Shown here one piece after another: positions 4,379-16,335 of a stretch of 29,168 nucleotides of DNA (positions are counted from its first letter, which is position 1; each line of letters opens with the position of its first letter). The DNA is taken from the IMG/VR virus record IMGVR_UViG_3300017772_000077, positions 1-29,168 of that record; one strand, given 5' to 3'. The position numbers and the translations under genes were made by a program. The notes beneath the pieces were generated by a model. The model was not told the origin of the DNA. It searched no databases and worked only from the letters and a program-made list of their open reading frames with translations. The stretch comes from a virus.

Positions 4379-4542
4379 TGGTAACACTTAAGGTAATAAA
4401 TTCAGTAGAGGGTACTACCATGACTACTGAGAAATATGAAGACTACATAACTAATAGACAGATGCAAGATATTGCAGATGATATCGTAGCTCTTTATAAA
4501 GAGAACAACGTAGACGTACAAGTAACAATTGAAAGGGACTAA
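4378..4542 (+). CDS. Very small hypothetical protein, 54 aa
   Basis: The ATG at 4378 overlaps the previous TAA, and the frame runs to a TAA at 4540-4542, one base before the DNA polymerase ATG at 4544. The product starts MVTLKVINSVEGTT and ends VDVQVTIERD, is acidic and has no recognised motif. The polymerase ribosome-binding site (AAAGGG) lies within its last codons, so translational coupling is likely. The clean fit between two genes with one-base junctions is the main evidence that it is real. An internal ATG at 4420 is an alternative start. Confidence 0.6.
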   Translation: MVTLKVINSVEGTTMTTEKYEDYITNRQMQDIADDIVALYKENNVDVQVTIERD

Positions 4543-4543
4543 T

Positions 4544-6784
4544 ATGTATTTAATTTTCGACTCTGAGACACAAATAACAAAGAAATATAAAAGAACAGCA
4601 AATCCTTTTATAAAAGAAAACTTCGTTGTTGCGCGGGGTTGGAAAAAACAAGGTGATAACAATGCATCATGTAAGTTCTTTACAGCTACTGACAAGGAAA
4701 ACTGGTTAGTAATTGATGAAGATGTTACAGTCTTAGTAGGTCATAACATTAAGTTTGATTTACTTTACGAAATGACTGCAGGTAATCCTTATCTAAAAGC
4801 TTTCTATAAGCGTGGTGGAAGCATCTGGTGTACTCAATATGCTGAATACTTACTTAACGCTATGCAACGCAAGTATCATATGAATTCTATGGACGCTATC
4901 ATTGAGTCTTATGGAGGTCGTAAGAAGATTGATGGTATGAAAGCTATGTGGGAAGCTGGTATACAGACATCCGACATAGACCCTGACATGGTTAAGGACT
5001 ACCTGATAGGTACTGAGGCCGAGAACAGGGACTCTGGTGACATAGGCAACACTGAGCTAATATTTCTAGGTCAGCTAAAGTCTGCACAAGAGGCGGGAAT
5101 GCTTACATCAATTAAATTACGTATGGATGGGTTAGCGGCTACTACAGAGATGGAGTACAATGGCCTTAAGATATGTACTCAGACAGCTAGAGAGGACTTA
5201 CTTAGGCTTAACAGAGAATTAATAACAGCTTCTAATGAGCTGTATAATTATACTTCTGATATACCTGAGAAGGTTGGATTCAAGTGGTCATCTACTGTAT
5301 GTAAATCAGCTATTATATATGGTGGATGTATTAGATACCGAGAGAAAGATACTTATCTTGATGACAAAACAGGCAAGCTTGCAAGATTTAAAGCTGTTGA
5401 GAAATGGCCATTAGTTGGTGGAGTAGCTGTTGAACCTGATAAACTAGGTAATCAAGTACAAGATAAGTTCTTATCTGGTAAGAACAAAGGTGCATTACGT
5501 TTCAAGAATGTATCTGTTCAAGGCGAACTCAAAACTAAGTATCAAGATAGATATTATAATCTAGATGGATATGTTAATCCTGAGACAGTTGGAGCAGATA
5601 AGACTAAGAACACTGATGGCAAAGGTAATCCTTTATACTCAACTGACTCTGAGACAATGATTATGTTAGGTAAAAACTCTGACGTACCTTTTCTTAAGGC
5701 ATTGTCTGAGAAAACTAGGTTGGATAAAGAGATAGGTACTTATTATGTTACTACTGATTCTAGCGGTAATACTAAGGGTATGCTTACATGTGTTAATGGT
5801 GAAAATAATGTTTTACATCATATGCTTAACCATACTTCTACAGTTACAAGTAGATTATCTAGCTCTAATCCTAATTGTCAAAACATACCTAAAGCACCTT
5901 CAAGGGTCAAAGCTATGTTTGTTTCTAGGTTTCCTAACGGCAAAGTTGGTGAGATAGATTACTCACAGCTAGAAGTTGTTGTTCAAGGTTTATTGACCAA
6001 TGATAAGCAGCTAGTATCTGACTTAATCAATCGCGTAGACTTTCATTGTAAACGTGTATCAGCTAAGTTTGATATAGATTATAATGATGCTGTGAAGTGG
6101 TGTAAGGATGAGAACGACCCTAACTACTCTACTTGGCAACCCCGTAGACAAGGTGCTAAAGAGTTTAGTTTCCAACGTACCTACGGTGCAGGGGCAAATA
6201 CCATTGCACTATCGACGGGTATGTCAATTTCTGATGTAGAAGAATTAATTGAGGCTGAGAATAAGCTATACCCTGGAGTACTGCAATTTAATGCGGACGT
6301 AGAGGCAGAAGTTACTGCTACTGCACAAGGTTTTAGAGACCCCCTAATGGGTTACAGGGCTTTCAGACGCGGTGAGTATCAATCTCCTACGGGAACTATT
6401 TACTCTTGGCGTAGCTATGATGCACCTTCTTTCTTAAAAAACAAAGGCATAACAGATACTTTTAGTCCACCTGAGCTTAAAAACTACCCAGTACAAGGTA
6501 CAGGCGGTGAGATAGTTCAAATAGTCTTAGGTAAGTTATGGAGATACTTTGTTAAGATGGATAACTGGAATGGTAAAGCATTATTAGTCAATACAGTTCA
6601 TGACTGTGTATGGTTTGACATGGATGAATCTGTATCCGAAGAAGTCTTAAAAACTGCTAAAGTTATTATGGAAGGTGTTCCGACATACCTTAAACAACAT
6701 TTTGATATAGATTGCCCAGTACCTTTCCCAGTAGATGTAGAAATAGGTAACAATATGTTAGATTTACATCACTTGGATGCTTAA
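4544..6784 (+). CDS. DNA polymerase, family A, with 3'-5' exonuclease
   Basis: Replicative polymerase of T7 gp5 type, 746 aa. The exonuclease domain has Asp6/Glu8 (FDSET) and Asp72 (GHNIKFD); Asp166 (GDIGNTE) is a candidate for the third motif, though the usual Tyr spacing is not clear. Polymerase motifs: A with Asp472 (GEIDYSQLE), B with Arg535, Lys539, Phe543 and Tyr547 (RRQGAKEFSFQRTYGAG), a QGTGGEI segment, and C with His686-Asp687-Cys688 (VNTVHDCVW), where Glu is usual. Phe543 corresponds to E. coli Phe762. About 130 residues (255-390) separate the FKWSS thumb segment from LDKEIGTY. I chose ATG 4544, behind AAAGGG, over an upstream TTG at 4529. The stop overlaps the first tandem promoter. 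Confidence 0.95.
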   Translation: MYLIFDSETQITKKYKRTANPFIKENFVVARGWKKQGDNNASCKFFTATDKENWLVIDEDVTVLVGHNIKFDLLYEMTAGNPYLKAFYKRGGSIWCTQYAEYLLNAMQRKYHMNSMDAIIESYGGRKKIDGMKAMWEAGIQTSDIDPDMVKDYLIGTEAENRDSGDIGNTELIFLGQLKSAQEAGMLTSIKLRMDGLAATTEMEYNGLKICTQTAREDLLRLNRELITASNELYNYTSDIPEKVGFKWSSTVCKSAIIYGGCIRYREKDTYLDDKTGKLARFKAVEKWPLVGGVAVEPDKLGNQVQDKFLSGKNKGALRFKNVSVQGELKTKYQDRYYNLDGYVNPETVGADKTKNTDGKGNPLYSTDSETMIMLGKNSDVPFLKALSEKTRLDKEIGTYYVTTDSSGNTKGMLTCVNGENNVLHHMLNHTSTVTSRLSSSNPNCQNIPKAPSRVKAMFVSRFPNGKVGEIDYSQLEVVVQGLLTNDKQLVSDLINRVDFHCKRVSAKFDIDYNDAVKWCKDENDPNYSTWQPRRQGAKEFSFQRTYGAGANTIALSTGMSISDVEELIEAENKLYPGVLQFNADVEAEVTATAQGFRDPLMGYRAFRRGEYQSPTGTIYSWRSYDAPSFLKNKGITDTFSPPELKNYPVQGTGGEIVQIVLGKLWRYFVKMDNWNGKALLVNTVHDCVWFDMDESVSEEVLKTAKVIMEGVPTYLKQHFDIDCPVPFPVDVEIGNNMLDLHHLDA

Positions 6785-6806
6785 TGCTTCACTATAGAGA
6801 ATAGAA
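6779..6806 (+). promoter_or_regulatory. Phage RNA polymerase promoter P1 (tandem copy 1)
   Basis: Core TTAATGCTTCACTATA at 6781-6796, predicted start G at 6797 (GAGAATAGAA). It matches the T7 promoter exactly from -8 to -1 (TCACTATA) and also at -11 G and -13 A. It overlaps the last codons and stop of the DNA polymerase gene. The 28 bases from 6779 are repeated exactly at 6820, 41 bp downstream. Assignment to the phage polymerase encoded at 9336 is inference from the T7 family. Confidence 0.9.
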
Positions 6807-6819
6807 ACTTTTGTAAAAG

Positions 6820-6847
6820 GCTTAATGCTTCACTATAGAGAATAGAA
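6820..6847 (+). promoter_or_regulatory. Phage RNA polymerase promoter P2 (tandem copy 2)
   Basis: Exact 28-base copy of P1, predicted start G at 6838. The two are separated by ACTTTTGTAAAA, which is diverged or unique sequence. The exact identity of the copies, including about ten bases past the start, shows that the initially transcribed region is also constrained or that the duplication is recent. It drives the probable ssDNA-binding protein, exonuclease, endonuclease VII and RNA polymerase genes. Confidence 0.9.
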
Positions 6848-7050
6848 GCAAATATGCCTGCCTCAAAAGAATAAGTAAGATATATTATATACTAATAATA
6901 ATAAGATTAATACAATAAATTTTATATTAAGATATATATATAATACTAATATATAATACTAGTATATACCCTAGGGTGTATGTTATAATATAATTGTAAA
7001 CTAAAATAAATTAATAATAATAATACTAAGTCATTAATAAGGAGAAAATT
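6848..7050. other. A+T-rich non-coding region, candidate replication origin
   Basis: About 200 bases with no gene, made largely of A and T (long TAATAATA, ATATATATAATACTA and similar runs), directly downstream of two tandem phage promoters. T7's primary origin is built the same way: two tandem promoters (phi1.1A and phi1.1B) followed by an A+T-rich stretch where the transcript primes leading-strand synthesis. A near-palindrome centred on CCCTAGGG lies at 6964-6981. The last bases carry the ribosome-binding site (AAGGAGAAA) of the gene at 7051. Origin function is inference from architecture. Confidence 0.55.
6964..6981. repeat. Near-palindrome inside the A+T-rich region
   Basis: ATATACCCTAGGGTGTAT pairs with itself over eight positions, with one T-G wobble, around the central TA. 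It is the only G+C cluster in the surrounding A+T-rich DNA. It lacks a following T tract, so it is not an obvious terminator. It could be a protein-binding site or an RNA hairpin; no function is shown. Confidence 0.55.
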
Positions 7051-7977
7051 ATGACAAATTCACTAATACAAAATATTCAATCAATGGTAGAAGCTGGTTC
7101 ATTAGAAGACCAGACAGTACAGAAGACTAAGTTCGTAAGACAGATAGCACCAGAAGGTGTTACTACTGCTAGACTAGTTGGTTATGTAGAACTCGGTTAC
7201 TTACCACAGAGACCTTGGCAAGGTGAAGCTAAGCCTGATGCACCTATGGTTACTTTAACATGGGAACTTAATGGTAAAAATTATATGAAGAATGTAGCTA
7301 AAGCTGGTGAGCCTGAGAAGTTGGTTCCAACTATGCACAGAGAAACAATTAAGTTATCTACTAATGAGAGAGCTAAATACTTTAAGTTATTTAACAAGAT
7401 GCGTAGACAAGACAAGCCTGTTACTCATATGGCTCAGTTACTTGGTCAAGGTTGTATCATTCGGATTAAGCATAATGCTTCTAAGAAAGACCCTTCAATA
7501 AAATATGCTAACATCTATACAGCAGTAGATGGTTGGATGGTAACTCCACCAATCGAAACTAGTGCGGTATCTGGTGAAACTACTGAGGTCCCAGTACCTA
7601 CAGCAGTAACTCCAATGCAACTACTACTACAAGCATCTCCTAGTATCCCACAATGGAATTCAATTTACATTGATGGAACTTATACTAAGAAAATTAATGG
7701 TGCTGACGTAGAGTTATCTAAGAACTTTGTTCAGTACAAATTATTAGGTGCTAGTTCATTCAATGGTTCTGCTTTAGAGTCACTACTAAGAGATAATAAC
7801 TTATTAGCTGGTTTACTAAATGATAAGAAGGTATCTGATGCAGCGTATAACGATTCTAAGCCTCGTACAGAGGTTGTAGAAGTACCTGATGTACCTTCTA
7901 TCATAGAATCTCCAAAAGTCTCTCCAGAGGGCTTAGAAGGCTCTGTAGACCCCCTTGCAGCACTAGGTCTCGCTTAG
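7051..7977 (+). CDS. Probable single-stranded DNA-binding protein, 308 aa
   Basis: Tentative. The first 160 residues look like an OB-fold-type phage protein: ARLVGYVELGYL, then VTLTWELNGK, a STNERAKYFKLFNKMRR helix, LLGQGCIIRIKHN and KYANIYTAVDGW, a pattern of strands around one helix typical of phage ssDNA-binding proteins. It is the first gene behind the tandem promoters and lies just before the exonuclease, the position expected for a gp2.5-like replication/recombination protein. The C-terminus (PLAALGLA) is not the acidic, aromatic tail of T7 gp2.5, although the preceding 40 residues are acidic. Alternatively it could be a different DNA-associated phage protein. Ribosome-binding site AAGGAG precedes the ATG. 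Confidence 0.5.
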   Translation: MTNSLIQNIQSMVEAGSLEDQTVQKTKFVRQIAPEGVTTARLVGYVELGYLPQRPWQGEAKPDAPMVTLTWELNGKNYMKNVAKAGEPEKLVPTMHRETIKLSTNERAKYFKLFNKMRRQDKPVTHMAQLLGQGCIIRIKHNASKKDPSIKYANIYTAVDGWMVTPPIETSAVSGETTEVPVPTAVTPMQLLLQASPSIPQWNSIYIDGTYTKKINGADVELSKNFVQYKLLGASSFNGSALESLLRDNNLLAGLLNDKKVSDAAYNDSKPRTEVVEVPDVPSIIESPKVSPEGLEGSVDPLAALGLA

Positions 7978-7981
7978 TTAT

Positions 7982-8941
7982 ATGGATAGCATGCTTAAAG
8001 AGCTATCCGCTCTAGACTTAAGCTCGTATGTAGAGGACCTGAGTAGTTTCGCAGCTCAGGTCCCAGGAAGAGTAGCACATATAGATGCTGACTTCACTGC
8101 TTATCAAGTAGCGTGTGAAACTAGAGATGAGTTAGACGGATTGAAACCTCGCAGAACATTTGCTGAGATGCAAGAGCAGGTTATATCCATAGTAGAATAT
8201 CAAACACGATTAGTAGGAGCTGAGAGCTATGTTTTATATATCACACCGCCAGCCTCGACTAAGGGAGGACGGGCCACTACTGCAGTTACCAAGGAATACC
8301 AAGGTAATAGGAAGAACAGAATTAAGCCTGAACATCTTGATGACATCAGAGCATTCATGGGAGAGGCTTTACCTAGTAGAGTCGCACTCGATAGGGAGGC
8401 AGATGATTTACTTTGCCAAGCTATGTATGAAGCGATTGAAAACGATTGTCCTGAGCTTCATGTACTTTGTTCTAGGGATAAAGATTTGAATATGGTCCCA
8501 GGATATTACTGGGACTACAGAGATGAACAAGTTATGGCATTAGATGGTGATACATTTGGTTACATAGAATTAGACAGGAGTAAGAAGTCTCCTAAGGTTA
8601 CAGGTAGAGGCACTAAATTCTTTTGGGCACAATGCTTAATGGGTGATGGTGCTGACAACATTGCTGGCTTACCCTCTTATCATTTGAACGATAAGAATCA
8701 TAAGTGTGGTGCTGTTACTACTTATAAACTATTAGAAGATGCTGAATCTGATTTAGAATGTTATAACATAGTTAGAGATTTATATAGGGAGAGTAAACAT
8801 GAATGGATTAATTACAGGGATAATAAACCTACTACTTGGGGCGTTGCGCTTTATGGTGACATGGTTAGCCTATGGATGCGCCGTAGTACTGATGATACTA
8901 TCAATACTTTCATCAGTGAGGTCTTACAACAAGGGGCTTGA
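7982..8941 (+). CDS. 5'-3' exonuclease, FEN/T7 gp6 type
   Basis: Degrades duplex DNA 5' to 3' and can remove RNA primers. In T7 the homologue also breaks down host DNA and helps concatemer processing. The 319-aa protein has the metal-binding acid clusters of the family: Asp35/Asp37 (HIDADF), Asp137, Glu139, Asp141 and Asp142 (DREADD), Asp166/Asp168 (SRDKDL), and Asp222/Asp225 (GDGADNIAGLP), the last being the helix-hairpin-helix entry. About 30 residues precede the first motif. It starts four bases after the preceding stop, and its TGA overlaps the ATG of the endonuclease VII gene. No unusual features in the active site. Confidence 0.9.
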   Translation: MDSMLKELSALDLSSYVEDLSSFAAQVPGRVAHIDADFTAYQVACETRDELDGLKPRRTFAEMQEQVISIVEYQTRLVGAESYVLYITPPASTKGGRATTAVTKEYQGNRKNRIKPEHLDDIRAFMGEALPSRVALDREADDLLCQAMYEAIENDCPELHVLCSRDKDLNMVPGYYWDYRDEQVMALDGDTFGYIELDRSKKSPKVTGRGTKFFWAQCLMGDGADNIAGLPSYHLNDKNHKCGAVTTYKLLEDAESDLECYNIVRDLYRESKHEWINYRDNKPTTWGVALYGDMVSLWMRRSTDDTINTFISEVLQQGA

Positions 8942-9336
8942 GCATGGAGAGAATTAAACCAAGTCAAATTAAAGGCGTAAGAGATGCCCTACTAAAGCAG
9001 CAGGGTTACAAATGTCCTTTATGTGAATCTAGTATAGGTAAAGCTTCTTCTAAGAAGCGACCTGCACTAGACCATGACCATACTACAGGTATTATACGTG
9101 ATGTATTATGTATAAACTGTAATGGTTTAGAAGGTAAGGTATGGAATCTATTGAGACGCATGTCTAAGGGTAAGGGTAAAGAAGTTCTAGCTAACTTACT
9201 TACTTATTACGACAGACATGAAACTAAACCTCATGGAGACATACTACATAGTACTCATAAAACTGAAGTAGAGAAACGTGACCTACGTAATAAGAGGGCA
9301 CGTCTTAAACGTGCTAACTTAAAGAAAGTCAAATAA
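8938..9336 (+). CDS. Recombination endonuclease VII
   Basis: Holliday-junction-resolving nuclease of the T4 endonuclease VII family, 132 aa, expected to clear branched DNA before packaging. The zinc site is Cys26-x2-Cys29 and Cys58-x2-Cys61, and the beta-beta-alpha metal site has Asp45-His46-Asp47-His48 and Asn62 (CINCNG). This reproduces the T4 arrangement almost exactly. The C-terminal 40 residues are very basic (RNKRARLKRANLKKVK), suited to DNA binding. The gene overlaps both neighbours by a few bases. Its placement between exonuclease and RNA polymerase matches phiKMV-like gene order. Confidence 0.92.
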   Translation: MSMERIKPSQIKGVRDALLKQQGYKCPLCESSIGKASSKKRPALDHDHTTGIIRDVLCINCNGLEGKVWNLLRRMSKGKGKEVLANLLTYYDRHETKPHGDILHSTHKTEVEKRDLRNKRARLKRANLKKVK

Positions 9337-11795
9337 TGAAAACAATACAAGAGCAATTAGACTGGGAACACAGCATGGCTACTCGCGGAGTTGAAAGATT
9401 CCGTAGGATACAAGCCGATGCCTCTCAGTCCAGAGGTCACGAGACTTCTGCAGGAAGTAGGTTACTACGTTCCTATGTTATAAATATATCTGACAGGATT
9501 GCTCTCTATTTGGAGGGTAAACACCCTGAAGGAAGACGTAGAAATAAATACGCTAAACTATTAGATGCTATTGACGGGGATAAGTGTTCCATAATAGCAT
9601 TAAGAACTGTAGTTAGTGTAGTATTTAAAGATAAGATTAGTATAGCTAAAGTATGTGTAAACATCGGTAGACTATGTGAGGATGAATTAAGACTTACTAA
9701 GTTTGAGACAGAACATACGTTGTATTACGAGTCACTTGTTCGTGACATGGAACGTAAGAACCAACGTAACTATAAACATATGAGGCGTACATTAGTTAAG
9801 AAGGGCCAGGACAAGGGCTTAGAGTGGCAGTCATGGACAGAAGATGATTGCTTAGGTGTCGGAGCTTTACTACTTAGTTTACTTATGGAAGTATGTGACT
9901 TAGTAGAACGTGTAGATGCACCGCCTAATGGAAAGTACAAAGGACAAGCTTCTATTGTACCTACTGCATCGTGTCTAGATTGGATTAAGAAACACAATGA
10001 TATAGTTGAGTTAACTAGTCCTGATAGGATGCCTTGTATAAGGCCACCAGCTGAATGGACTTCAGTAACTGAGGGAGGCTTTTGGTCTCCTAACTTACGT
10101 AGACGTACACCTTTAATTAAAACTAAGCACATGACTAAAGAGAGAGAGCTTATGTATGCTGAGGCAGAGATGCCTCAAGTTATAACAGCAGTTAACTCCA
10201 TGCAAAAGACTGGATGGAGAGTTAACACTAAGGTAAAGAAAGTTATAGAAGACGTATGGACTAAAAACTTAGGTTGTGGGATGCCGCGCTCTGAGCCATA
10301 TGAGTTTCCAGAATGTCCTTTAGATGTATCTCAAATAACATCTGAGTTAAATAAAGAGAGTGTAGAATATAAAGCATTTGCAGAATGGAAAGCTATAACA
10401 AGAGAGTTACATACTCAGGAGAAAGAGCGCATTGCTAAAAACTTAGCAGTAGTACGTACCATGCGACTAGCATCAGACATGAAAGATGTTGAGCAGTTCT
10501 GGTATGTTTACCAGTGTGACTTCAGAGGCAGAGTATATGCAGCATCGTCTGGGTTAACTCCACAAGGTTCTGACCACTCTAAAGGATTAATAGAGTTCTT
10601 TACTGGAGAGCCAATTGAATCTAAAGAAGGTTTACAATGGTTCTTAGTTAACGGTGCTAATAAATTTGGTAACGATAAAGTATCTTATGAAGACAGAGCT
10701 GCCTGGGTATATGATAACAAACAACTTATTATAGATTGTGCTAATGACCCAATAAGTAATAGAAGCTTTTGGGCTAATGCTGATAAACCTTATCAATTCC
10801 TAGCATGGGTATTTGAGGCAGCTGAATTATTACAGATGTCTAATCCATTAGAATTTATATCACATTTACCAGTAGCATTAGATGGTAGCTGCAACGGACT
10901 ACAACACTTCTCAGCATTATTGTCTGATGAAGTAGGTGGTAAGTCAGTTAACCTAATGCCAACCGAGTTACCAGCTGATATCTATCAAGATGTTGCTGAC
11001 GTGTGTTATGCTAAGCTATTAGAGAGAGCTAAGTTAGGGGAAGCCCCTGCTTTAAATTGGATAAAAGCTTTAGGTCCTAAAGGTATGTCACGTAAACTAC
11101 CTAAGAAACCTGTTATGACATTGCCGTATGGTTCAACTCAACAAGCATGTACTGCTAGTATATATACTTACATACAAGAGAACTTAGTAGGTAAGTTTGA
11201 TAAGAATACATTATTCAAACATTCTATATACCTTAACCCATTATTATGGTCATCTATAAATGAGGTAGTTATAGCAGCTAGGGCTGCAATGGATTGGATA
11301 CAAGAGTGTTCAACTATACTAGCTAGAAAGAATATACCACTCAAGTACTATAGTCCTTTAGGATTCCCTGTACTACAAGCCAGCCAAAAGTATACATCTA
11401 AACAGATACGTACTCAAATAGGTGGAAGCTTACAACTAAGAGTTGCTACTTTTACAGGTGACTTAGATAGCCGTAAGCAACGTCAGGGCAGTAGTCCTAA
11501 CCTAGTACATCATGTAGACGCATGTCATATGATGATGGTTATTAATGCTTGTGCTGATGATGGTATAGATAACTTCGCAATGATTCATGATGATTTCGGT
11601 GTACCAGCTAGGTATGCAGGTAAGTTACATAAACATATAAGAGAGCAGTTTGTTGCTCTACATTCGTACACCAGTATACTAGAAGATTTCAAGAGAGTGC
11701 ATGAAGAAGCAGGAGATATAATACTACCTGAGATACCTCCCAGAGGTAACTTAGAAGTTACTCAAGTGCTTCACTCTGAATACTTTTTTGGTTAA
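9336..11795 (+). CDS. Single-subunit DNA-directed RNA polymerase, T7 type
   Basis: An 819-aa polymerase that transcribes the phage genes from its own promoters. Residues matching the T7 enzyme: DFRGR at 395-399, catalytic Asp516 (DGSCNGLQHFSA; T7 Asp537), Arg586, Lys590, Met594 and Tyr598 (T7 Arg627, Lys631, Met635, Tyr639), His731, and catalytic His751-Asp752 (T7 His811-Asp812). The specificity-loop region lies at about 685-715. The C-terminus ends YFFG, similar to the aromatic end of T7 polymerase. T7's SG in the first motif reads NG here. The gene is fourth behind promoters P1 and P2, so it probably boosts its own synthesis. Its ATG overlaps the endonuclease VII stop. Confidence 0.96.
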   Translation: MKTIQEQLDWEHSMATRGVERFRRIQADASQSRGHETSAGSRLLRSYVINISDRIALYLEGKHPEGRRRNKYAKLLDAIDGDKCSIIALRTVVSVVFKDKISIAKVCVNIGRLCEDELRLTKFETEHTLYYESLVRDMERKNQRNYKHMRRTLVKKGQDKGLEWQSWTEDDCLGVGALLLSLLMEVCDLVERVDAPPNGKYKGQASIVPTASCLDWIKKHNDIVELTSPDRMPCIRPPAEWTSVTEGGFWSPNLRRRTPLIKTKHMTKERELMYAEAEMPQVITAVNSMQKTGWRVNTKVKKVIEDVWTKNLGCGMPRSEPYEFPECPLDVSQITSELNKESVEYKAFAEWKAITRELHTQEKERIAKNLAVVRTMRLASDMKDVEQFWYVYQCDFRGRVYAASSGLTPQGSDHSKGLIEFFTGEPIESKEGLQWFLVNGANKFGNDKVSYEDRAAWVYDNKQLIIDCANDPISNRSFWANADKPYQFLAWVFEAAELLQMSNPLEFISHLPVALDGSCNGLQHFSALLSDEVGGKSVNLMPTELPADIYQDVADVCYAKLLERAKLGEAPALNWIKALGPKGMSRKLPKKPVMTLPYGSTQQACTASIYTYIQENLVGKFDKNTLFKHSIYLNPLLWSSINEVVIAARAAMDWIQECSTILARKNIPLKYYSPLGFPVLQASQKYTSKQIRTQIGGSLQLRVATFTGDLDSRKQRQGSSPNLVHHVDACHMMMVINACADDGIDNFAMIHDDFGVPARYAGKLHKHIREQFVALHSYTSILEDFKRVHEEAGDIILPEIPPRGNLEVTQVLHSEYFFG

Positions 11796-11798
11796 AAC

Positions 11799-11826
11799 GC
11801 TTAACGCTTCACTATAGAGGGATAAA
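11799..11826 (+). promoter_or_regulatory. Phage RNA polymerase promoter P3
   Basis: Core TTAACGCTTCACTATA at 11801-11816, predicted start G at 11817 (GAGGGATAAAG). It differs from P1/P2 only at one base upstream of the start (C for T at -12) and in the initially transcribed bases. It lies four bases after the RNA polymerase stop and is the only promoter of this type found ahead of the virion genes. Confidence 0.9.
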
Positions 11827-12904: not shown

Positions 12905-14481
12905 GTAACTACGGTAACACACCTAAAGGAAACATCGGTTCAATATGGACTGCAATGGAACAAGAGAAGGGTGACTTATTAGAACGCAGTGAGGCTTATG
13001 CTAGATGGACTCTAGCTAATATACTACGTGCTGATAGAGAAGAGCATATGCAGAATACAGAGATGACTAAAGGCTCTGTTATGATGGGTGCTAAATGGGT
13101 TAATCATTTATCTAATAGAATAGTAGATGTATTATTCCCGTTATCTAGACCTTTCTTTACTGTAGCCCCTACACCTAAAACTAAAACAGCATTGATAGAA
13201 GAGAATGGTGAAGACCAAGCTGCTATCATAAAAGAACAAATAAGAGAAGCTACTTCTAGAATTGAAGAAGAAGCTATCAGAGCCTTAAGGCTTGTTGAAT
13301 ACAGACCAGTAGCTATCGAAGCTTGTAAGCATCTTATCATAACAGGTAATGCATTACTAAGACGTATGCCATCTGGTAAAAGAATACTGTACTCTGTAGA
13401 CCGTTATGGAATACGTAGAGACATAGAAGGAAACCCTATCGAAGTTATATTATATGACCGTAAGAAGTTATGTACCTTTGACCCTAAGATGCAAGCTGCT
13501 ATAAAAGAGATTCATCCTAAGGCTAAAGATAACGATAAGATGGAACTATTGTCACATTATAAACTAGATGCAGATAAGCGATGGTGCTTTAAGCAAGAGG
13601 TTGAAGGTGTAGCTATAGGTAAACAAGTTAAGTACGCTATGAAGGACTTTGACTTACTACCATTAGCATGGAACTTACCGTCTGGATTTCATTATGCTAC
13701 AGGACTAGTAGAAGATAACTCTACTACATTCCATAAGCTAGATGTAACTACAGAGGCTCTTACAGACATGGTAGCTATTGCAGCTGATATTAAATTCTTT
13801 GTTAGACCAGGGTCTGCCCTTGGTTTACAACTAAGAGAACTTAATAATGCACAGCGCGGGTCTTACTTCGCAGGTAATGCAGAGGACATAGCTGTCCCTG
13901 AGATTAACCTAAGAGGTGACTTAGATACCATAGCGAATATAGTAGCTAAGTGGGAAGGTGACTTATCAAGAGTATTCTTATTATCTAATGTGCGTGATGC
14001 TGAACGTGTTACTGCTGAAGAGATAAGACTAGTAGCTAGAGAATTAGAGAGTTCATTCGGTGGACTATATTCTCAACTAGCTCTACAATGGCAACAGAAG
14101 GAAGCTGACTATGTGCTTTCTACAATGGATGTTGGTGATGTAGGTAAACTAGGAGATGCTTTTGAAGTATTAGTTACTACAGGTCTAGAGTCATTATCTA
14201 GAGAAGGACAGATTGATAATCTTAGGTTAGCTATAACTGACTTACAGATGTTAGAAGCTGTTCCTGAAGAGATACGTTCTATATTCAACCCGACTAGATT
14301 CGGACAATTTATATTTACTAATAGAGGAGTGGCTATGGCTGACTTCTTAAACACACCTCAGGAACTGCAAGCCATGCAAGAGCAAGAATTAGCTGCTGCT
14401 GGTAGACAGGCTGAGATAGATACTGGTGCAGCTGTAGCACAGCACGCTGGTAAAGCAGAAATTGACAGTCAACAACAATAG
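12901..14481 (+). CDS. Portal (head-tail connector) protein
   Basis: Forms the dodecameric ring at the capsid vertex through which DNA is packaged and ejected. It is 526 aa (T7 gp8 is 536). Family-typical stretches include the N-terminal helices with AKWVNHLSNRIVDVLFPLSRPFF (from about residue 64), the ACKHLIITGNALLRR segment at about 141, and the signature LLSNVRDAERVTAEEIRLVA at 360-379. The C-terminal tail is Gln/Ala-rich. It is followed nine bases later by the scaffold gene, in the order seen in all T7-like phages. Confidence 0.95.
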   Translation: MSNYGNTPKGNIGSIWTAMEQEKGDLLERSEAYARWTLANILRADREEHMQNTEMTKGSVMMGAKWVNHLSNRIVDVLFPLSRPFFTVAPTPKTKTALIEENGEDQAAIIKEQIREATSRIEEEAIRALRLVEYRPVAIEACKHLIITGNALLRRMPSGKRILYSVDRYGIRRDIEGNPIEVILYDRKKLCTFDPKMQAAIKEIHPKAKDNDKMELLSHYKLDADKRWCFKQEVEGVAIGKQVKYAMKDFDLLPLAWNLPSGFHYATGLVEDNSTTFHKLDVTTEALTDMVAIAADIKFFVRPGSALGLQLRELNNAQRGSYFAGNAEDIAVPEINLRGDLDTIANIVAKWEGDLSRVFLLSNVRDAERVTAEEIRLVARELESSFGGLYSQLALQWQQKEADYVLSTMDVGDVGKLGDAFEVLVTTGLESLSREGQIDNLRLAITDLQMLEAVPEEIRSIFNPTRFGQFIFTNRGVAMADFLNTPQELQAMQEQELAAAGRQAEIDTGAAVAQHAGKAEIDSQQQ

Positions 14482-16295: not shown

Positions 16296-16304
16296 AATTA
16301 ATTA

Positions 16305-16335
16305 GGCTCTCCTCTTAACTGAGGGGGGCCTTTTT
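16305..16335 (+). terminator. Hairpin terminator after the capsid gene
   Basis: GGCTCTCCTC (16305-16314) pairs with GAGGGGGGCC (16321-16330) over ten positions, two of them G-T wobbles, around a TTAACT loop, followed directly by TTTTT. It sits where T7 has T-phi just after gene 10, so it probably lowers expression of tail genes relative to capsid. Confidence 0.9.

Follow-up and report, generated by a model that had tools for sequence, protein, structure and literature searches.

Does a pair of identical phage promoters followed by an A+T-rich tract, lying just behind a DNA polymerase gene, mark the place where an uncultured phage starts copying its DNA? The question is raised by a virus record of 29,168 bases (hereafter the window), a fragment with unmapped ends that lacks the leftmost part with the early genes. 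According to the original prediction, this locus would be a T7-style origin that had moved next to an ssDNA-binding gene, and the main replication origin of the phage. The source phage is a T7-like member of the Autographiviridae of the phiKMV type, a large group in which, to our knowledge, replication origins have not been finely mapped.

The gene order of the window, as assigned with Pfam and PHROG, runs from primase, DnaB-type helicase and an exonuclease-like protein to a family A DNA polymerase (DNAP) and a protein of family phrog_862, followed by a 5' exonuclease, endonuclease VII, a T7-type RNA polymerase (RNAP) and then the structural genes (coordinates in Table 1). The RNAP gene thus closes the replication module ahead of the structural genes, which is the organisation described for phiKMV (PMC3765740). 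Further downstream, a hairpin with a trailing run of T residues (CTCTCCTCTTAACTGAGGGGGGCCTTTTTCT) occupies positions 16300-16335 directly 3' of the capsid gene, a position like that of the T7 terminator Tphi.

Table 1. Features of the window around the post-DNAP locus
Feature	Position	Strand	Remarks
Family A DNA polymerase gene	4529..6784	+	Pfam DNA_pol_A, E=2e-35; PHROG DNA polymerase; stop codon TAA (6782-6784) inside promoter copy 1
Phage RNAP promoter, copy 1 (D1)	6779..6806	+	Sequence and register conserved in relatives
Phage RNAP promoter, copy 2 (D2)	6820..6847	+	28 bp identical to D1, 41 bp downstream
Non-coding A+T-rich tract	6848..7050	.	Candidate unwinding and primer region; also 5' leader of the next gene
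Imperfect palindrome (hairpin) ATATACCCTAGGGTGTAT in the tract	6964..6981	.	Leader fold z -2.2
phrog_862 protein gene	7051..7977	+	PHROG match; conserved C-terminal DPLAALGL tail; AF2 model
T7 gp6/5' exonuclease-like gene	7982..8941	+	PHROG exonuclease
Recombination endonuclease VII gene	8938..9336	+	Pfam Endonuclease_7
Single-subunit (T7-type) RNA polymerase gene	9336..11795	+	Pfam RNA_pol, E=2e-105
Third promoter (R), single copy	11799..11824	+	Variant GCTTAACGCTTCACTATAGAGG, just after the RNAP gene; only a 51-bp leader follows

The repeat, GCTTAATGCTTCACTATAGAGAATAGAA, is present as two exact 28-bp copies with a start-to-start distance of 41 bp, just as first described. When up to 3 mismatches are allowed, it has 2 matches in the window against 0.00 expected in shuffled sequences, and strong promoter copies total only three in 29 kb, namely this pair (D1 and D2) and the single copy R. 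From -7 to +1 the promoter reads CACTATAG, which is exactly the T7 consensus. A promoter over or just after the DNAP stop codon (D) is conserved across the clade of the window, and, although its sequence varies between phages, the post-DNAP and post-RNAP promoters agree at 16 to 20 out of 20 positions across some 15 genomes. An exact search with the promoter through 2.9 million viral contigs gave no match, so that no near-identical relative was found. Judged by sequence and conservation, the repeats are genuine promoters of the phage's own single-subunit RNA polymerase, and the promoters expected at a T7-type origin would thus be in place, as two exact and conserved copies with a third at the end of the RNAP gene.

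The tract behind the promoters spans 203 bp with 82.8% A+T (87.1% in its core, 6871-7040) and is the A+T-richest place of the whole window: its best 100 bp reach 90% (z 5.6), against 75% at the next best place and 61.5% for the genome. It is free of genes, as had been claimed, with no ORF of at least 40 aa on either strand of 6785-7050. Its description as almost pure A/T is a slight exaggeration, as the first 25 bp or so and the CCCTAGGG hairpin contain G/C. Searches of the interval by blastn against phage genomes and against Rfam returned no match, and sigma-70 promoters in the tract were not above chance.

The resemblance to T7 goes beyond mere looks, given the strength of the tract and the behaviour of T7 itself as a control. 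Analysed with the same script, the T7 primary origin also consists of two tandem promoters and an outlier A+T-rich non-coding tract, whose z of 4.2 compares with 5.6-5.7 in the window. The two sites differ in promoter spacing (75 bp in T7, 41 in the window) and in tract length (about 80 bp in T7, 203 bp in the window), and function is proven in T7 only. Moreover, the T7 origin follows the early RNAP gene, whereas the site of the window follows DNAP and has the RNAP gene 2.3 kb downstream; a place beside the RNAP gene is, however, a location specific to T7 and not a mechanistic requirement.

Comparison of the same interval in about 40 genomes, comprising viral contigs found via DNAP, phrog_862 and RNAP together with reference phages, gave a mixed answer: the promoter is conserved and the tract recurs in several relatives, but the closest ones have no tract. 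In the closest clade (L009-L014 and G003, 83% DNAP identity) the D promoter is kept as one copy with a 49-base leader, which partly realises the situation that the original prediction had named as contrary evidence, that is, relatives with the promoters and without the A+T-rich tract. L003 has two D promoters and a 129-base gap at 74% A+T, whereas in L057 (79% identical to L003) the D promoter is single and the gap measures 52 bases, without tract. Two D promoters with a tract are also found in L028, and one with a tract in L026 and L029; the tract is further present in L062 and in Stappia phage SI01. In the records of L003, L026, L028, L029 and L062 (fragments with 62-68% DNAP identity) it is the A+T-richest spot. 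Agrobacterium phage Atu_ph03 likewise carries it at D, and Paracoccus phage ParMal1 carries one after the RNAP gene. As the closest clade and L057 live with a single promoter and a leader of 49-52 bp, the tract is dispensable at D. The window, L003 and L028 lie on separate branches of the DNA polymerase tree, and the sequence duplicated is in each case the phage's own promoter, from which we conclude that tandem D promoters probably arose more than once, on these three branches. The junction between DNAP and phrog_862 also takes small-gene insertions (L030, 244-779; L066; L112; L008, phage ParKuw1, 38433-38795), the one in ParKuw1 being annotated as a pyrophosphatase.

The supposed move of the origin next to DNAP therefore has to be read as a clade-wide trait: the post-DNAP location is real but not peculiar to the phage of the window, since it is common to its clade and to phages of Rhizobium, Agrobacterium and Stappia, and a phage promoter is annotated at the equivalent position of phiKMV, a precedent already published (PMC3765740). 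In phiKMV, as in the window, this promoter (13979-14015) stands directly before the phrog_862 homologue (ORF21) in the same gene order; unlike in the window, gp20 lies in between, the promoter is single, no A+T-rich tract accompanies it and the A+T peak comes after RNAP. For phiKMV, an origin within the DNA polymerase gene that fires bidirectionally has been reported, and the same was predicted for JG068 from GC skew (PMC3765740). These statements anticipate the location but carry little weight as evidence, and the window differs from them in showing no skew minimum at DNAP.

To see which promoters carry a tract, the roughly 210 bp downstream of each were scanned in 80-bp windows, and the A+T maximum was converted to a z-score relative to that genome; promoter site sets and z cut-offs were picked after seeing the data. 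The median was 4.1 at D (n=15) and 4.8 (n=12) in region A, a long stretch of non-coding DNA ahead of the early genes, against 1.5 for capsid and 1.3 for tail promoters and a 95th percentile of 2.6 for random stretches. At R it was 6.4 in phages without D (n=4) and 1.6 in those with D (n=14), the difference between D and R having a P of 1e-4 that is indicative only, as the phages are related and such values overstate independence. Relatives have the tract behind one or two of their promoters, either D or R, plus region A. Among the 38 genomes with both intervals, outlier tracts (cut-off z 3.7) were found at D only in 9, at R only in 11, at both in 1 and at neither in 17. Strict exclusivity of D and R tracts was nevertheless rejected as not significant (1 'both' observed, about 3 expected), and it stays suggestive only.

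In T7, the same measure gave 4.9 for phiOL, 4.4 for phi6.5, 4.2 for phi1.1A/B and 3.3 for phiOR, and 3.0 or less for the other promoters; these four are also the four A+T-richest 100-bp places of its genome. The primary origin of T7 is phi1.1A/B, and secondary starts are associated with phiOL, phi6.5, phi13 and phiOR, phi13 being unremarkable in A+T (z 2.1). A+T-richness does not distinguish the two kinds of origin in T7. High A+T is common in non-coding leaders. On this analysis the outlier tract appears as the mark of a promoter subset, replication-linked in T7, and not as a general property of phage leaders.

These observations favour, as the best single reading and one that we hold to be about evenly poised between right and wrong, a T7-type, RNA-primed DNA replication start site formed by the D promoters and the tract. 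The promoters would transcribe the cassette from phrog_862 through exonuclease and endonuclease VII to RNA polymerase; the phage RNA polymerase would open the easily melted tract, and short transcripts from it would be extended by the phage DNA polymerase. Each genome would have at least two such promoter-plus-A+T sites, D being one and the other lying outside the fragment, in region A.

The gene next to the site may indeed encode an ssDNA-binding protein, although profile similarity gave no sign of the T7 family: hhalign probabilities for T7 gp2.5 were 1.9% (9 sequences) and 0.4% (55 sequences). Its AlphaFold model reached a pLDDT of 88 when built from 55 relatives and 40 from 9 sequences. 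The top PDB match of the modelled fold was PrgE of plasmid pCF10 (E 0.016, not significant by itself), which we take to be an OB-fold ssDNA-binding protein; viral fold matches include DUF669 and one single-stranded-DNA-binding protein, and the DPLAALGL tail fits an SSB-like role. The predicted fold thus weakly suggests a plausible ssDNA-binding, OB-fold-like protein. A sequence search of PDB with one query from the family (A1) found no match, and the ribosomal L24 matches of another (A3) were weak (E 0.012) and were disregarded.

The claim that D is the main replication origin is a different matter and is not supported, as the closest relatives have no tract there and the nearly universal region A falls outside the fragment; with region A missing, the 'main' origin is unreadable from the window. 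In nearly all complete relatives, region A ranks first or second among the A+T peaks, and phage promoters occur in it. GC skew, which had been proposed as a check, showed no switch at the D site, with a steady rise in both the window and G003, but neither did it switch at the known origin of T7; since T7's own origin is invisible in skew, this marker is uninformative.

Accordingly, the alternative that survives best holds region A to be the main origin and the post-DNAP site to be secondary, a back-up or without such function. We give it a substantial chance, though one short of even, and it overlaps with the RNA-primed start site preferred here because the latter leaves the most-used site open. 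Besides the prominence of region A, the G003 clade speaks for it, having lost the D tract while keeping an A region with two promoters. The contig concerned (L033-L035, 41957 bases), though classed as linear, has identical first and last stretches of about 145 bases, which suggests a complete genome that is either closed or terminally redundant; two further promoter-like copies lie near 40174 and 40390, within a non-coding region of about 0.8 kb. On the other side, region A resembles T7 phiOL and phiOR, with their A+T-rich downstream tracts near the genome ends, and these counterparts are A+T-rich yet secondary, so that the role of A may instead lie in DNA entry, packaging or early transcription. 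The D site of the window, unlike phiOL and phiOR, is internal and drives a gene cassette.

The locus might also serve transcription only, the doubled middle promoter and long AU-rich leader raising or timing expression from phrog_862 to RNAP with no role in replication, which we regard as possible but rather unlikely. The promoter annotated in phiKMV before the homologous gene (PMC3765740) and the closest relatives, with promoter and no tract, agree with it, as does the duplication of promoters by T7 under selection for more transcription (PMC6171733). It leaves unexplained, however, the lack of such tracts at R, capsid and tail promoters within the same genomes, and the occurrence of the tract at R where D is absent. 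Improbable, in our view, is that the tract is a decayed gene, formerly between DNA polymerase and phrog_862, that drifted to high A+T: several relatives do have an inserted gene at this spot, but the 83-90% A+T tops everything else in the window, no residual coding frame is left, and like tracts occur at the same spot in several relatives, two of them with tandem promoters. An initiator-protein origin (O/Rep-type), with the downstream gene product binding the repeats and melting the tract, is very improbable, since the only hint of it is a sub-threshold match (49 vs 75 bits) of phrog_862 to the NCBIfam 'phage replication initiation protein, NGO0469 family', a name with a weak annotation basis (PMC1931599), and since the repeat is a T7-type promoter recurring after the RNAP gene and the predicted downstream fold is weakly like an ssDNA-binding OB protein.

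A motif, GTATC[N]GT, recurs just after phage promoters of the relatives, in the pre-early region A and in D or R leaders, and is absent from the tract of the window. With N = T it overlaps ATCTGTT, the class II pause/termination signal of T7 RNA polymerase (PMC11617373), of which the T7 + strand has a unique copy within its left terminal region (base 161). It was found in 4/18 D leaders of the Rhizobium/Agrobacterium clade (0.05 expected) and in 7/41 R leaders of Paracoccus-type and other phages (0.4 expected), ratios that are optimistic as the motif was chosen post hoc. Sites include L004 (ParMal1; about 21346, 21441 and 39737), L008 (about 43963) and L007 (Atu_ph03; about 11928), among others, and in ParMal1 the motif supplies the 3' arm of a hairpin (CAGATACCGGG...CCCGGTATCTG). 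The R leaders of L028 (9540-9600) and L029 (10460-10500) have CGTAGCCAATCTGCG in common within a stem-loop-like stretch, a possible structured RNA behind the RNAP-end promoter.

Returning to the RNA-primed start site, we tentatively extend it to the whole group, well aware that the extension may fail: the internal start of phiKMV-type phages could be a module, made of an A+T-rich tract and sometimes a doubled promoter or the class II pause-like GTATCNGT motif, that shifts by lineage between the post-DNAP and post-RNAP promoters, alongside the pre-early site. The origin prediction that we found for this group (PMC3765740) is based on GC skew, a marker that does not work for T7; the present comparison predicts instead that one or two promoters per genome carry an A+T-rich tract, at a place that would vary by lineage.
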